In this document: positions 2,339-12,791 of the stretch, one piece after another | How positions within the stretch are numbered: position 1 is the first letter of the stretch | How the letters are laid out: each line of letters starts with the position of its first letter | Virus record (IMG/VR): IMGVR_UViG_3300029309_000077 | Location: 1 to 22,069 of that record | DNA: 22,069 nucleotides | Strand: one strand, 5' to 3' | From: a virus | Notes under the pieces: generated by a model | Databases searched by the model: none | What the model saw: only the letters and a program-made list of their open reading frames with translations | What the model was told of the DNA's origin: nothing | Program-made: the position numbers and the translations under genes

Positions 2339-2512
2339 TTAAACCTCCTGAAAATGTTCATCTACATCAAATAATATATCTGATATATTTTGACAGCCGT
2401 TAGGCAGTTCTACATCAATATTAAACTCTTTTAGTTTAGAGTTTATTTTGTCCCTAAGATGTATCATGTCTATGATGTTGTCTCTTAGTTGTTCATATTG
2501 TTTGTTAGTCAT
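2339..2512 (-). CDS. Small hypothetical protein, first gene of leftward operon (57 aa)
   Basis: This 57-residue protein starts MTNKQYEQLRDNIIDMIHLR, with a helical N-terminal half, and ends in an acidic segment (ILFDVDEHFQEV). The AAGGAG ribosome-binding site is well placed. It is the first gene after the divergent control region, so it is the likely promoter-proximal gene of the operon. No family recognised. Confidence 0.6.
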   Translation of the reverse strand: MTNKQYEQLRDNIIDMIHLRDKINSKLKEFNIDVELPNGCQNISDILFDVDEHFQEV

Positions 2513-2546
2513 TTAGTAACTCCTTAGTTGTTAATATGGTTATAAC

Positions 2547-2573
2547 TTTATAGTAAACATCAGGGAATGTCAA
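2547..2573 (-). promoter_or_regulatory. Candidate sigma-70 promoter for leftward operon
   Basis: On the minus strand a perfect -35 TTGACA (2573-2568) is followed 15 bases later by TATAAA (2552-2547), or 17 bases later by the weaker TAAAGT. It lies about 35 bases before the first leftward gene. The 15-base spacing is shorter than optimal, so it may be a weak or regulated promoter. Confidence 0.5.
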
Positions 2574-2640
2574 AGGACTACTTAGACTTTGTAGTTATAG
2601 AAGAATGAATTATATATAAGAATTTAATCTAATAAGTATA

Positions 2641-2668
2641 TTGACATTAGCCTAGAAATCAGGACAAT
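2641..2668 (+). promoter_or_regulatory. Candidate sigma-70 promoter for gene at 2711
   Basis: A perfect -35 TTGACA is followed after 16 bases by GACAAT, a 4/6 match to the -10 hexamer that keeps the key A2 and T6. Transcription would start about 35 bases before the 2711 ATG. It is divergent from the leftward promoter at 2547-2573. Between the two lies a short inverted repeat, ACTAC (2577-2581) and GTAGT (2591-2595), a possible operator. Confidence 0.45.
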
Positions 2669-2710
2669 AGACTATATAGCTTTTAACAAACAACTAGGAG
2701 GAAAGAAGTT

Positions 2711-3010
2711 ATGACTAAAAAACAATATCAACCAAAAGAAGATTACCAAGACTACATAGTCGATGAAGGGACACATAGTTTAATAGCTATGTATCTAATA
2801 GATAAAGGGATTGCTAGTACTAGAGCTAATGTAATAGCTGAAGTAGTTAGAGATTGCTTTAAGGCGGTAACTCCACTAGATAACTATAATAGTAAATTAG
2901 TTTCTGAGTTGTTACCTGAGATATTTACTTTAGGTAAATTTTATAATGACGTTTACGGAGATGGTACTTATCCATTCCATGAGAATGTAAAGGAGGTTAA
3001 AAAGGTTTAA
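2711..3010 (+). CDS. Hypothetical protein, lone rightward gene (99 aa)
   Basis: A 99-residue protein starting MTKKQYQPKEDYQDYIVDEG. The middle looks helical (LIAMYLIDKGI, ANVIAEVVRDCFKAV, SELLPEIFTLGKFY). No family recognised. The start is supported by AGGAGG eight bases upstream. It is the only rightward gene between the leftward operon and the signal-rich gap, in the position where phages often keep a regulator. Nothing in the sequence proves that role, as there is no clear HTH. A transcript from the leftward promoter at 3655-3683 would run antisense to it. Confidence 0.7.
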   Translation: MTKKQYQPKEDYQDYIVDEGTHSLIAMYLIDKGIASTRANVIAEVVRDCFKAVTPLDNYNSKLVSELLPEIFTLGKFYNDVYGDGTYPFHENVKEVKKV

Positions 3011-3067
3011 AGGTTCACTCCTAGACTTCCTAAGCATGAAGTTAAACTGCTTAACTATTGAATAACC

Positions 3068-3076
3068 TGTGGATAA
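3068..3076 (-). promoter_or_regulatory. Perfect DnaA-box match
   Basis: TGTGGATAA is the exact complement of the consensus DnaA box TTATCCACA. It is a single copy and can occur by chance, but it sits at the left of the only long non-coding gap, between two copies of the TTAAACTGC motif. Confidence 0.35.
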
Positions 3077-3159
3077 CTTTAAACTGCATACTTTTATTGT
3101 TAGCAATAATAATTAATGGGCGACAAAGGAGCACCTTGATATACGAGCTCTGCGAGTAT

Positions 3160-3227
3160 GTTAGCTATATGGTTGGAGCATACAAGTACTCCCAAGACCT
3201 ACCAAGTTTTTAGAGTTATATGCTAAC
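3160..3227. repeat. Long-armed inverted repeat
   Basis: GTTAGCTATAT (3160-3170) pairs with ATATGCTAAC (3218-3227) with one bulged base. The 47-base loop also contains partly complementary blocks (GGTTGG/CCTACC). It could fold as RNA on either strand; purpose unknown. Confidence 0.4.
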
Positions 3228-3279
3228 TTCATAACACTTCAAAGACTAGTAAATCTCATCAACTAGTTTTAGATTGGTT

Positions 3280-3295
3280 AGTTCTTCGTAGAACT
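3280..3295. repeat. Short perfect hairpin
   Basis: AGTTCT and AGAACT form a 6-bp stem around a 4-base TCGT loop, immediately upstream of the GTCT array. No T-run follows, so it is not a typical terminator. Confidence 0.4.
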
Positions 3296-3310
3296 TTAGA
3301 GTTCTTCCAA

Positions 3311-3379
3311 GTCTTTCTAGTCTTTTCGTTTCTTCCAATGTCTTTAGAGTCTGCCAAGTCTCTAAAGTCTTGTTAGTCT
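3311..3379. repeat. Nine-base-phased GTCT direct-repeat array
   Basis: GTCT occurs at 3311, 3320, 3340, 3349, 3358, 3367 and 3376. Every step is 9 bp except one of 20 bp. The units read roughly GTCTTnnnA. The preceding 30 bases (3281-3310) contain related 10-base units (GTTCTTCGTA, GTTCTTCCAA). The array lies in the non-coding gap about 350 bp before the small terminase gene, so it could be an iteron-like protein-binding array for replication or a terminase recognition site. That role is inference. Confidence 0.55.
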
Positions 3380-3630
3380 TGTAGGGGTTGCTCACAGAGT
3401 ACTCCAAAGGCTATGGGGTACGCAGGTGACCACCCCCCTCCACCCATATATCTATAGCATACTCATACATTTTAAAGACTTTTCAGGGTATACCAGTTCT
3501 GCCTCAACCTTTATAAAACTAGTTTACATCCGGCTATAAAATATCCCTAATCTTTATAGACTAGTCATAGTTTTCTGGGAGGTAAATATAAGAACTTTAA
3601 AGTGCTTTGGAGGGTCTCTATATCTATATA

Positions 3631-3659
3631 TTGACCCGGGGGGACACTAAAGTTATTAT
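3631..3659 (+). promoter_or_regulatory. Strong sigma-70 promoter P1, rightward
   Basis: TTGACC (3631-3636), a 17-base spacer and TATTAT (3654-3659) give 5/6 matches in both hexamers with ideal spacing. Initiation near 3666 would give the terminase operon a leader of about 69 bases. The -10 box overlaps the -10 of the leftward promoter at 3655-3683, so the two cannot easily be occupied together. Confidence 0.65.
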
Positions 3660-3683
3660 AGCTTCCAGATTGCATTCTGTCAA
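3655..3683 (-). promoter_or_regulatory. Perfect-consensus sigma-70 promoter, leftward
   Basis: On the minus strand TTGACA (3683-3678) is followed by exactly 17 bases and then TATAAT (3660-3655): both hexamers perfect with ideal spacing. Initiation near 3648 would send a transcript left across the non-coding gap, antisense to the gene at 2711-3010, and possibly into the leftward operon beginning at 2512. A perfect promoter is characteristic of strong early phage transcription. Confidence 0.7.
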
Positions 3684-3699
3684 GAACTTTTTAAATAAC

Positions 3700-3728
3700 T
3701 TGACAAATCTTGTATCCATCACTATACT
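3700..3728 (+). promoter_or_regulatory. Strong sigma-70 promoter P2, predicted leaderless start
   Basis: TTGACA (3700-3705), a 17-base spacer and TATACT (3723-3728) form a near-consensus promoter. The expected transcription start, about seven bases after the -10 box, coincides with the A of the terminase small-subunit ATG at 3735. No Shine-Dalgarno motif precedes that ATG, which fits a leaderless message. The -35 box is half of an inverted repeat, TGTCAAG (3678-3684) and CTTGACA (3699-3705). Confidence 0.7.
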
Positions 3729-3734
3729 ATTATT

Positions 3735-4163
3735 ATGGCAATACTACCAACAGTCGTCAATGACTCTAAAAGAGAACTCACTGAGAAACAGCAATCGTTT
3801 CTAGAGCATCTCGTTGAGACTCAAGGTGATGCTAAAAAGGCTGCTGAACTTGCAGGGTACAAGAGTCATTATCACCATGTGGTTAAGACTTTGAAGACTG
3901 AGATACTTGAGTTGACTCAAGAGGTCTTAGCAAACTCCGCACCACGAGCAGCCTTTAAGCTTGTTGAGATAATGGACTCTTCTAAACCCGTTATCCAAGC
4001 TAATAATAAACTTGCAGCAGCTCAAACGCTACTTGATAGGGTTGGAGTTACTAAAGTTGATAAGGTAGATGTTAACCATACAGTGAACAGTGGTATCTTT
4101 TTGATGCCTGACAAAGCACCTTTAGACCTACCCGAGGACCAATATGAAGATATTTCTAACTGA
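3735..4163 (+). CDS. terS: Terminase small subunit (probable)
   Basis: This 142-residue protein would recognise phage DNA and guide the large terminase subunit during packaging. The N-terminal region has the usual small-terminase pattern: LTEKQQSFLEHLVET at about residues 15-29, then DAKKAAELAGYKSH, a helix-turn-helix-like segment ('T-x-K-Q-x-x-F ... AA-x-x-AGY'). A helical centre (residues 65-105, likely oligomerisation) follows, and the C-terminal tail is acidic and flexible. Size is typical. The start is the only reasonable ATG; there is no ribosome-binding site, and promoter P2 appears to fire right at it. The end overlaps the next gene by 20 bases. The large subunit lies 2.3 kb downstream rather than adjacent, separated by small genes. 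The assignment rests on motif and context, not a database search. Confidence 0.75.
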   Translation: MAILPTVVNDSKRELTEKQQSFLEHLVETQGDAKKAAELAGYKSHYHHVVKTLKTEILELTQEVLANSAPRAAFKLVEIMDSSKPVIQANNKLAAAQTLLDRVGVTKVDKVDVNHTVNSGIFLMPDKAPLDLPEDQYEDISN

Positions 4164-4775: not shown

Positions 4776-5225
4776 ATGGCATATTCACAACAAGTAGTGG
4801 ACAGGTTTGAAAGTGTTTTAAACAATCCTGAAAAGCATGCGGTTGGTAGGTTTGACCCTAACGACCCTAATGTAGCTACCGGTTTAACTGGAGCTCCTGC
4901 TTGTGGAGATGTTATGAAGTTACAACTAAAGTTGGATGATGATGTTATTACAGATGTTAAGTTTAAAACTTATGGATGCGGTTCAGCGATAGCATCTAGT
5001 ACAATGTTTGTTGATATGTTAAAAGGTAAAACTATAGCTGAAGCAAAGCAGATAAAAGATAAAGATATTGCTGCAGCTTTAGAACTGCCTTCTATTAAGT
5101 TACATTGCAGTGTTTTAGCAGAAGAAAGTATTCACAGAGCTATAACAGACTGGGAAGCTAAAGTACAACATAGACAACATAATCAGCCAGAACGCTGGGA
5201 AGACCCTAACGGTTACGGTTACTAA
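4776..5225 (+). CDS. iscU: Iron-sulfur cluster scaffold protein IscU (phage-encoded)
   Basis: IscU is the scaffold on which the cysteine desulfurase IscS builds [2Fe-2S] clusters before HscA/HscB pass them to target proteins. The 149-residue product is plainly IscU. It has GAPACGDVMKLQLKL (Cys43, Asp45), KTYGCGSAIASS (Cys68) and LPSIKLHCSVLAEESI (His110, Cys111), so all three ligand cysteines and the aspartate that modulates cluster release are intact. LPSIK (residues 104-108) corresponds to the HscA recognition motif (LPPVK in E. coli). Bacterial IscU is about 128 residues; the extra length is a six-residue N-terminal insert and a polar C-terminal tail of about 20 residues. No other isc gene is nearby, so it would have to work with host IscS/HscAB. 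It is embedded between terminase genes and appears functional. Likely an auxiliary metabolic gene that supports host Fe-S assembly during infection (inference). Confidence 0.93.
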   Translation: MAYSQQVVDRFESVLNNPEKHAVGRFDPNDPNVATGLTGAPACGDVMKLQLKLDDDVITDVKFKTYGCGSAIASSTMFVDMLKGKTIAEAKQIKDKDIAAALELPSIKLHCSVLAEESIHRAITDWEAKVQHRQHNQPERWEDPNGYGY

Positions 5226-6448: not shown

Positions 6449-8069
6449 AAAGTACTTGACAAACCCAGATGGGAGCTATATACTTAATAAAGACGGTAAA
6501 CCACGTAAAAAAGGTGGTAGACCAAAGAACTCAGAACTTTCTGATGTACAACTTGCTATTAAAGCTAAAAAGCAATTAGTAAGTAAAAATAAGAAAGTTA
6601 AAAAGCTAACGAGACATTTAGCTAAGATAAAAAGAGAAACTGAAGCTGAAGAAAAAGCTTTAACATCTAATGTTTTATCAAAGGAAGATACTAAAGCTCT
6701 TCCAGAAGAAATACAAAAGCATTTAGATGATACTGGTTCGCATGTGGCATTTATGCCTAACGATGGACCACAAACAGATTTCTTAGCTGCATCCGAAAAA
6801 GATGTTTTATACGGAGGTGCAGCAGGTGGGGGAAAGAGCTTTGCAATGGTTATCGACCCACTAAGGTATTGCCACATTGGTGCTCATAGAGCATTAATAC
6901 TAAGAAGGTCAATGCCAGAGCTTAGGGAGCTTATAGATAAATCTCGTGAACTGTACCCAAAAGCATTTAAGGGTGCTAAGTTCAAAGAAGTAGAGAAGCT
7001 ATGGCAATTCCCTAGTGGAGCTAAGATAGAGTTTGGATTTTTAGAAAGAGATGCAGACGTATATCGTTATCAAGGTCAAGCATATAGTTGGATTGGTTTT
7101 GATGAGATTACGCATTTACCAACAGAGTTTGGTTGGAATTATCTAGCATCTAGGTTAAGAACAACAGACCCAGAGCTACCAACATTTTTGCGATGTACAG
7201 CAAACCCCGGAGGAGTTGGAGCACAATGGGTTAAAAAGAGATACGTTGACCCGTCTGATGAAAATAAAACTTTCGTTGGTACAGACGGTTTAACAAGGAA
7301 GTTTATTCCAGCAAGATTACAGGATAACCCGTTTCTTGCAGAGGATGGCGAGTATGAACGCATGTTACTTTCTTTACCTCCAGTACAGCGTAAGCAGTTA
7401 CTTGAGGGTAATTGGAATATAAGTGAAGGTGCAGCGTTTGCAGAATTTGAACCCGACATCCATGTTATAACACCTTTTGAAATACCTACATGGTGGGAAA
7501 GATTAAAAGGCATTGACTACGGATACGCTTCTGAGAGTTGTTGCTTATGGGCTGCGATTGACCCCGAAGACAAGACCATCATCATATATAGAGAGTTATA
7601 CGAAAAAGGTCTTACAGGGGAAGCTCTCGGTGATAAGATAACAGACTTAGAAATGAATGAAGTTAAGTCAATAGGTGGTGTATTAGATACAGCAGCATGG
7701 TCTAGAACTGGTTATACTGGTCCAACGATAGGTGAAATACTTATCCAAAAAGGACACAAGTTAAGACGAGCAGACAAAAATAGATTAGCTGGTAAGATTC
7801 AAATACACGAACATTTGCGACAAGATAGGAGTACCGGTAGACCTAGATTGCAAATATTAAGTACATGTACGAATTTAATAAAAGAATTACAAAGTCTGCC
7901 TTTATCGAAGAGTAATCCTGAGGATGTGGATACTCATTCATCTGACCATGCTTACGATGCATTGCGTTACATGATTATGAGTAGACCTAAATTAGACCAT
8001 CCATATGACAGGATGCTGCAGATTAAAACGAGGATGTACCAACCATCTGACGAAACATTTGGGTATTAA
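6423..8069 (+). CDS. terL: Terminase large subunit (packaging ATPase-nuclease)
   Basis: The large terminase pumps DNA into the prohead and cuts the concatemer. The 548-residue product shows the ATPase motifs: Walker A GGAAGGGKS (131-139), Walker B WIGFDE with acidic pair Asp227-Glu228, and coupling motif CTANPGG (258-264). The C-terminal RNase H-like nuclease follows, with acidic residues Asp365 (GIDYGYAS), Asp422 (VLDTAAW) and Asp508/Asp512 (DHAYDALRY). A basic N-terminal extension of about 100 residues precedes the ATPase; it includes KKGGRPKNS, a GRP core flanked by lysines as in AT-hooks, and may add DNA binding. The start overlaps the previous gene by 26 bases, and the stop overlaps the portal ATG (TAATG). 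Confidence 0.95.
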   Translation: MEDWEKNPEKYLTNPDGSYILNKDGKPRKKGGRPKNSELSDVQLAIKAKKQLVSKNKKVKKLTRHLAKIKRETEAEEKALTSNVLSKEDTKALPEEIQKHLDDTGSHVAFMPNDGPQTDFLAASEKDVLYGGAAGGGKSFAMVIDPLRYCHIGAHRALILRRSMPELRELIDKSRELYPKAFKGAKFKEVEKLWQFPSGAKIEFGFLERDADVYRYQGQAYSWIGFDEITHLPTEFGWNYLASRLRTTDPELPTFLRCTANPGGVGAQWVKKRYVDPSDENKTFVGTDGLTRKFIPARLQDNPFLAEDGEYERMLLSLPPVQRKQLLEGNWNISEGAAFAEFEPDIHVITPFEIPTWWERLKGIDYGYASESCCLWAAIDPEDKTIIIYRELYEKGLTGEALGDKITDLEMNEVKSIGGVLDTAAWSRTGYTGPTIGEILIQKGHKLRRADKNRLAGKIQIHEHLRQDRSTGRPRLQILSTCTNLIKELQSLPLSKSNPEDVDTHSSDHAYDALRYMIMSRPKLDHPYDRMLQIKTRMYQPSDETFGY

Positions 8070-11140: not shown

Positions 11141-12019
11141 ATGACTGAAGAAGTCTTAAAAGAAGGACAGCCAAATCCTTATAATTTACAAAAATCTTGG
11201 CATACTGGAGAGGATAAACCTTTTCAATCGGCTGAACAGCTTTACTTTGAAGACCCGTCTGAGAAGAATAAATTATTCAAATCAAATGATGTTAACGAAG
11301 CAGAGCAAGAAGGTAACGTAGAAGTTAATAGTTTGGATGCACCTAAGGATGAACCTTATAAAAAACCAGACTATAAGAAACGCTACGATGACTTGAAAAG
11401 ACATTATGATAGCAAACTCAATGAGTTTAAACAGAGAGAAGAAGAGTTAATTAAACAGGCAGTGCCTGAATATAGAGCTCCGAAAACTCCAGAAGAACTT
11501 GAAGAGTTTAAAAAAAGTTATCCTGATGTTTTTGAAGTTGTAGAAACAGTTGCTCACATGCAAAGCGAATCTAAGGCAAAAGTTCTAGAAGAACGTCTTA
11601 GTAAACTCCAAGAAAGAGAGCAAGAAATATCTCAACAAGAAGCTGAAAAAAGGTTAAGAGAAAGACATCCTGATTTTGATGATATTAGAAACAGTGATGA
11701 TTTTCACAAATGGGCAAAAGAACAGCCTTCATCTATCCAAGGCTGGATATATGATAACGCTGACGATGCCGACCTAGCCAGTAGAGCTATTGATTTATTT
11801 AAACGTGATTTGGGAATTGATGTTCCTGAGAAGATAACTAAGTCATCTTCTAAGACTAAATCGGCTGCTGATATGGTATCTACAAAAACAACTGCTGTAG
11901 AACCTAAATCAGAAAAGATTTGGTCGGAAAAGGAGATTGCTGCTATGAGCATAGATGAGTTTGATAAATACGAAAGTGAAATCAGCGAAGCTATGCAACA
12001 AGGCAGAATCGTTAAATAA
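11141..12019 (+). CDS. Head scaffolding protein (probable)
   Basis: A 292-residue, highly charged, mostly helical protein lying just before the coat gene, the standard place for a podovirus scaffold, which templates prohead assembly and leaves before or during packaging. The sequence has a proline- and charge-rich N-terminus, DYKKRYDDLKRHYDSKLNEF (about residues 79-98) starting a coiled coil, further heptad-rich stretches (EERLSKLQEREQEISQQEAE), and an acidic/basic C-terminal helix suited to coat binding. An AGGAGGT ribosome-binding site is well placed and is preceded by the structured leader. Confidence 0.85.
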   Translation: MTEEVLKEGQPNPYNLQKSWHTGEDKPFQSAEQLYFEDPSEKNKLFKSNDVNEAEQEGNVEVNSLDAPKDEPYKKPDYKKRYDDLKRHYDSKLNEFKQREEELIKQAVPEYRAPKTPEELEEFKKSYPDVFEVVETVAHMQSESKAKVLEERLSKLQEREQEISQQEAEKRLRERHPDFDDIRNSDDFHKWAKEQPSSIQGWIYDNADDADLASRAIDLFKRDLGIDVPEKITKSSSKTKSAADMVSTKTTAVEPKSEKIWSEKEIAAMSIDEFDKYESEISEAMQQGRIVK

Positions 12020-12044
12020 ACTATAAACACAAAGGAGTATTATC

Positions 12045-12791
12045 ATGGCTCAATTTTTTGAACCAAGTACTGATACTGATGCTAACTTTGCAAACTCCGT
12101 AAGTGGACAAACTAATAGTTTTTTCCTACCTAAGATTTACTCGAAAAAGGTATTAAACTTTTTCAGAAAAGCCTCGGTAGTTGAAGCTATTACTAACACC
12201 GACTATGCCGGTGAGATTTCTGCTTTCGGAGACTCAGTTAGGATTATTAAAGAACCTGTGATTTCAGTTTCTGATTACACAAGAGGTTCTGACACTACGC
12301 AAACAAAGTTAACCGACCAAGAGATATCTTTGGTTGTAGATAGTGCAAAGGCTTTCAAATTCATCGTAGATGATATTGAAACTAATATGTCACACGTTAA
12401 CTTCAAAGAAGTTGCTACTTCATCTGCTGCATATGCATTGAGAGATTCATATGATGCTGCTGTAATCGCAACTATGTTCTCTGGAGTTTCTACATCTTCA
12501 CCTGACCACGTTCTAGGTGCTGATGCATCTGCTGCTACTCAAACTATGGGTCAGCATCAAGGTGGTTCTAACGCTATCGACCTTACAGGTTCTGATGGTA
12601 CTGGAACTGACCCATTAGACGTGATGTCATTTATGGCTAAGCTACTAGATGAGCAAAGCATACCTGAAGAAGGAAGATGGTTCGTTGCACCGCCTTCATT
12701 CTACAATGAACTTGCACAATCTGGTTCTAAGCTTTTAAGCGTAGACTTTAACGCAGGTCAAGGCTCTATAAGAAATGGTCTTGTGTCCTAA
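12045..12791 (+). CDS. Major capsid (coat) protein, N-terminal part of a frame-broken gene
   Basis: The coat protein builds the icosahedral shell. The 248 residues before the stop look like a podovirus HK97-fold coat protein: MAQFFEPSTDTDANF start, IYSKKVLNFFRKASVVEAIT, GDSVRIIKEPVISVSDYTRG, ALRDSYDAAVIATMF (spine-helix region) and RWFVAPPSFYNELAQSGSKL. The frame stops at TAA 12789-12791 just after GSIRNGLVS. The expected C-terminal end, VYGAKVLRPEALVTAF, follows at once in the -1 frame. Because coat proteins of this type are usually 320-350 residues, and the 'RNGLVS' segment is normally followed by further domain sequence before the final 'LRPEA' strand, I infer an out-of-frame deletion or assembly error here. 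AAGGAG precedes the start. Confidence 0.85.
   Translation: MAQFFEPSTDTDANFANSVSGQTNSFFLPKIYSKKVLNFFRKASVVEAITNTDYAGEISAFGDSVRIIKEPVISVSDYTRGSDTTQTKLTDQEISLVVDSAKAFKFIVDDIETNMSHVNFKEVATSSAAYALRDSYDAAVIATMFSGVSTSSPDHVLGADASAATQTMGQHQGGSNAIDLTGSDGTGTDPLDVMSFMAKLLDEQSIPEEGRWFVAPPSFYNELAQSGSKLLSVDFNAGQGSIRNGLVS

Follow-up and report, generated by a model that had tools for sequence, protein, structure and literature searches.

Conserved divergent sigma-70 promoters upstream of terS as the probable transcription divergence point of a marine podovirus-like phage family

The window analyzed here is a stretch of 22,069 nucleotides, bases 1-22069 of the 46,505-base virus record IMGVR_UViG_3300029309_000077. 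The rightward arm of the record is structural (terS-terL-portal-capsid), and the leftward arm carries the replication genes primase/helicase, PolA and ribonucleotide reductase (RNR). The cumulative GC skew reaches its minimum at 2.5 kb and its maximum at 36.6 kb of the record, and these turns mark the two divergent arms. The structural arm also holds a NifU/IscU-like iron-sulphur scaffold gene at 4776-5225 of the window (+) (Pfam NifU_N E 1.4e-38), and CsgG-like and FecR-domain proteins are encoded at the end of the rightward arm (11685-12545 and 13148-14254 of L377, from the same record, about 33.8-36.3 kb of the record). At L377 18196-19835 (-), a DNA polymerase A domain match falls in an ORF of 143 aa with further short, overlapping ORFs next to it, and this polymerase gene may be split or frameshifted.

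The TerL protein is 63-65% identical to those of the Pelagibacter phages HTVC103P, HTVC104P and HTVC115P and about 46-50% identical to those of HMO-2011-type phages; megablast found no DNA-level match to any sequenced phage. The annotation of HTVC103P places terS at one end and a series of opposite-strand genes at the other, so the same divergence is present in a rotated record. Phages of this group, whose hosts are SAR11 and SAR116 bacteria, are called dominant in the ocean in a paper that nowhere mentions promoters (PMC9038755). Our literature search found no infection transcriptome for the phage family of the window, and the SAR11-phage infection time courses that it returned (PMC12753301) concern other phage groups. 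The promoter hub described here, with its predicted leaderless terminase gene and candidate origin or pac element, supplies exact coordinates for mapping 5' ends and packaging starts and for reporters. The features of the locus are as follows.

2339-2512, minus strand: first gene of the leftward operon, with its own 10/12 promoter candidate at 2573-2545
2513-3648, minus strand: leader of the P_L transcript, predicted to be untranslated and to extend to the first leftward gene
2711-3010, plus strand: small gene antisense to the P_L transcript; its located homologues in relatives lie on the leftward strand, within the leftward operon
3412-3512, minus strand: single-copy element of roughly 90 bp, CTGGTTAAC..AAAATGTATAA..TATATATA, GC-rich tract, TGGYCWCCTGCCYACCCC
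3631-3659, plus strand: P1, the rightward partner proposed in an earlier note on this DNA, TTGACC-17-TATTAT (10/12), overlapping the P_L -10
3635-3643, no strand assigned: CCCGGGGGG block, kept in most relatives; it would fall at about nt 5-13 of the P_L transcript
3655-3683, minus strand: P_L, the leftward sigma-70 promoter (-35 TTGACA at 3683-3678, 17 bp, -10 TATAAT at 3660-3655)
3684-3699, no strand assigned: 16-bp spacer between the divergent -35 elements, of helically phased length in the window's clade only
3700-3728, plus strand: P_R, which would drive terS and the structural arm rightward, TTGACA-17-TATACT (11/12)
3735-4163, plus strand: terS, terminase small subunit (Pfam Terminase_2 E 1e-4, below cut-off; PHROGs terminase small subunit)

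The perfect promoter reported in the earlier note is present on the minus strand at 3683-3655, which reads TTGACA GAATGCAATCTGGAAGC TATAAT and would start transcription near 3648. The chance expectation of TTGACA-N15-19-TATAAT in the window is 0.08 by dinucleotide shuffling (8 of 100 shuffles had one), and P_L is the only 12/12 site within the window. With near-consensus hexamers in the 16-18 bp spacing range, above chance, it has the form of a host sigma-70 promoter. Shortly downstream of the predicted start, the CCCGGGGGG block shows C at 60-77% and G at 47-82% in the logo of 3635-3643. The only other 12/12 site in the record is a second perfect TTGACA-17-TATAAT at record position 41046 (-), in L377, in the leftward arm. 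An 11/12 promoter-like site also occurs at window 6456-6484 (+), inside the N-terminal coding region of terL.

The earlier note left out P_R, whose -35 is only 16 bp from that of P_L. To compare relatives, TerS relatives were gathered from viral contigs, and a pattern scan for the promoter pair was run independently, without the use of terS. Both promoters are present in 90 of 93 upstream clusters of terS relatives. In 97% of 89 clusters, P_L and P_R each have a score of 11/12 or higher immediately upstream of terS, compared with 0% of the same clusters at five control offsets from terS (-800, -400, +600, +1200 and +2000). Among the loci kept from the scan made without terS, 30 of 80 carry a terS of the window's family. 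Across 90 cluster representatives, the P_L -35 is always TTGACA, the spacer is 17 bp in 88 and 16 bp in 2, and the -10 is TATAAT in 63, TATACT in 17, TACAAT in 9 and TAAAAT in 1. P_R is kept to a similar degree in 90 clusters, with TTGACA in 89 and TTGTCA in 1 at the -35, and TATAAT in 57 and TATACT in 33 at the -10. The hexamers, the 17-bp spacers and the distance from the -10 to the ATG are retained at TerS identities down to about 50%, and the isolates HTVC103P and HTVC115P carry the same pair. Loss of the hexamers in close relatives had been named as grounds for rejecting P_L; their retention supports a genuine leftward promoter. In HMO-2011 and Roseobacter phages, terS lies inside an operon without the P_L/P_R pair.

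The conserved rightward partner of P_L, judged from these clusters, is therefore P_R, placed back to back with it, and not P1. The terS ATG at 3735 follows the P_R -10 by 6 nt, and this distance is 6-8 nt in 75 of the 90 clusters. Since this geometry would put the P_R start at the ATG itself, terS is predicted to be translated from a message that is probably leaderless; our literature search found no paper on a leaderless terS.

Leftward, the transcript from P_L would cross a gene-less leader, estimated at 0.6-0.85 or more broadly 0.5-1 kb in the family, which contains the conserved element, before entering the leftward operon. In relatives, the first leftward ORF with an ATG start begins a median of 709 nt beyond the P_L -10. 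Terminators in between are rare (7 of 104 leaders against 3.4 expected), which supports P_L reaching the leftward genes. The leftward operon may nevertheless use local promoters rather than P_L: the best promoter scores in the 150 bp before the first leftward gene are mildly above those of shuffles, and the window has the 10/12 candidate at 2573-2545. The direction proposed in the earlier note, toward the leftward operon, holds, and that operon is the replication arm.

Taken together, P_L and P_R probably form the single transcription divergence point of a marine podovirus-like phage family, at which P_L, as a strong host-sigma-70 promoter, would start leftward transcription of the replication arm and P_R would start rightward transcription of a leaderless terS and the structural arm. 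The locus had also been read as an early/late switch. Because the leftward operon is the replication arm and terS heads the structural arm, a division point between early and late genes is plausible; a role as a switch is conjectural. Two consensus promoters of equal strength would not on their own produce early/late timing. Lambda-type PL/PR and other divergent phage hubs have a single regulatory region from which strong host-sigma-70 promoters point into two genome arms, and P_L and P_R would resemble them in this. Unlike in lambda, only 5-56 bp separate the -35 elements here, no repressor gene lies between them, and one promoter is predicted to start at the terS ATG and to serve the structural arm.

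The spacing between the two -35 elements is the most surprising and least explained observation. In the window's clade (TerS at least 72% identical), 116 distinct upstream regions show -35 gaps of only 5, 14-17, 25-28, 36-37, 46 and 56 bp. On the TerS tree, the spacer has changed length at least 30 times within this restriction, and the helical turn has changed at least 16 times; recombination may inflate these counts of independent changes. At a period of 10.5 bp, the distinct values give an R of 0.81, a value reached in 0 of 20,000 random draws, and a conservative test on six length classes gives p = 0.0009; the phasing test was picked after the data were seen. Phasing is far weaker for a control distance in the same genomes, whose distinct values give an R of 0.31. 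The extended -35 elements form an inverted repeat, TTGTCAA..TTGACAA. These features would fit a coupling of P_L and P_R, in which a regulator or the polymerases (alpha-CTD on a shared A/T-rich stretch) touch both -35 regions from one helix face, giving co-repression, co-activation or a switch. An influence of each promoter on the other through fixed spacing is conjectural, and we consider the coupling less likely than not. Helical phasing is not universal: in the rest of the family it fails (R 0.04), which counts against coupling. The phasing in this one clade opens promoter coupling to direct tests.

The leader holds the conserved element about 200 nt downstream of P_L, in the order CTGGTTAAC, AAAATGTATAA, AT run, GC tract, TGGYCWCCTGCCYACCCC. 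Of 186 distinct TerS-upstream regions, 176 carry it; it precedes terS by 226-512 bp, with one copy per locus searched and a constant orientation. A sequence model of the element matches HTVC115P (E 8e-11), HTVC103P (7.5e-5) and ctYwJ313 (1.3e-4); the match in HMO-2011 is weak (0.09), though the CCTCCTGCCCGCCCC core is present. The element lies at the operon divergence in HTVC103P and HTVC115P. In ctYwJ313 and, more weakly, in HMO-2011, it lies at the divergence of late and early operons, more than 4 kb from terS. Of 65 members, 49 have a G-rich, 7 a C-rich and 9 a mixed GC tract; this variation suits a DNA element better than an RNA, and it speaks against a strand-specific G-quadruplex or R-loop. 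A second sigma-70 promoter within the element was also rejected, since TATAAN lies 19-20 bp from TTRACA (members counted by eye), which is too far. Contig ends upstream of terS are scattered with no pile-up, which speaks against a cos site or fixed genome end.

By its position, the element is a candidate replication origin or pac site. If it is a pac site, the promoter pair could be incidental to a terminase/pac module and kept merely for terS expression. Its constant orientation and its position before terS agree with this, as does the distant relative phiM6, a Sinorhizobium phage that shares terminase superfamily 6 with the window phage and for which PhageTerm predicts that the pac cut falls at position 1, with the terS homologue about 600 bp further on. 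The predicted pac site of phiM6 is likewise a GC-rich conserved element in the gap before terS. Unlike that site, the element may lie at a long distance from terS, as in HMO-2011-type genomes, and sequence model R1 has no match near the phiM6 ends. We consider a mere pac module unlikely, as the element sits at the operon divergence away from terS in ctYwJ313 and weakly in HMO-2011, contig ends do not pile up in it, and the conservation of a perfect leftward promoter would be left without explanation.

The nearby GC-skew minimum and the position at the operon divergence provide the context for the origin reading, and conjecturally, transcription from P_L would help to open or prime an origin at the element. 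Transcription-dependent origins include the T7 primary origin and that of ColE1 with its RNA II promoter, in which, as here, a strong promoter precedes an A/T-rich element by a few hundred bp. Unlike in these systems, the GC tract after the A/T part switches strand from member to member, which makes a need for an R-loop doubtful, and the origin here is a candidate only. The two conjectures can be joined: in the window's clade, a shared regulator or polymerase-polymerase coupling would hold the pair on the same DNA face, 1-6 helical turns apart, as a spacing-locked switch whose leftward transcript also activates an origin at the element. This combined scheme seems improbable to us.

The central feature of the earlier note was exclusive occupancy of P_L and P1. 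The overlap itself is present, with TATTAT of P1 at 3654-3659 lying across the P_L -10; as a conserved partner, P1 is weakly supported, and exclusive occupancy loses its central place, since the P1 -35 reaches at least 5/6 in just 20% of clusters (0-4% at control offsets). In most relatives it is degenerate (TGCACC, ATAACC, TGTACC etc.). The P1 -10 arises for the most part from the symmetry of the TATAATA in P_L, so that P1 may represent at most an optional bidirectional-promoter activity. Escherichia coli bidirectional promoters most commonly have divergent starts 18 bp apart, with 10 and 23 bp also common (PMC12825309). The predicted starts of P_L and P1, near 3648 and 3666, are 18 bp apart, and their symmetric -10 resembles the shared -10 of that class (Warman et al. 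2021; 2026, PMC12825309). One symmetric -10 (TATTATA) serving P_L and P1 in opposite directions, with mutually exclusive transcription, would agree with this distance and with the excess of P1 -35 matches over control offsets. Given the degenerate -35 and the universal retention of P_R instead of P1, we think it quite unlikely; P_R does not share the -10, and about 87 bp separate its predicted start from that of P_L.

A long regulatory RNA from P_L, antisense or structured, in place of an operon leader was also proposed and is very unlikely: the gene-less transcript region, in which one stretch and the start-proximal CCCCCCGGG are conserved, would suit it, but an Rfam search of 2400-4000 gave nothing above threshold (one chance match below it), folding of the leader on both strands in two clades and of the element gave neither the consensus structure nor the covariation expected of a structured regulatory RNA, a conserved terminator yielding a short RNA was found in a few members only and not across leaders, and the element keeps its primary sequence while its GC tract varies. 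The predicted transcript is antisense to the gene at 2711-3010 in the window, as the earlier note described, but this is not a family feature. The located homologues of this gene sit 1.7-2.9 kb further left and on the leftward strand. The antisense relation therefore reflects a local rearrangement, a lineage-specific inversion or transposition. With P_L read as the start of the replication-arm message, its leader in relatives has a further character that is nearly absent from the window itself. At 240-800 nt beyond P_L, dense CTTTAAAG, AGACTTT and TCTAGTTTAC repeats occur far above the expectation from base composition; beyond the element in family leaders, CTTTAAAG was counted 65 times against 1.8 expected and AGACTTT 99 times against 12.
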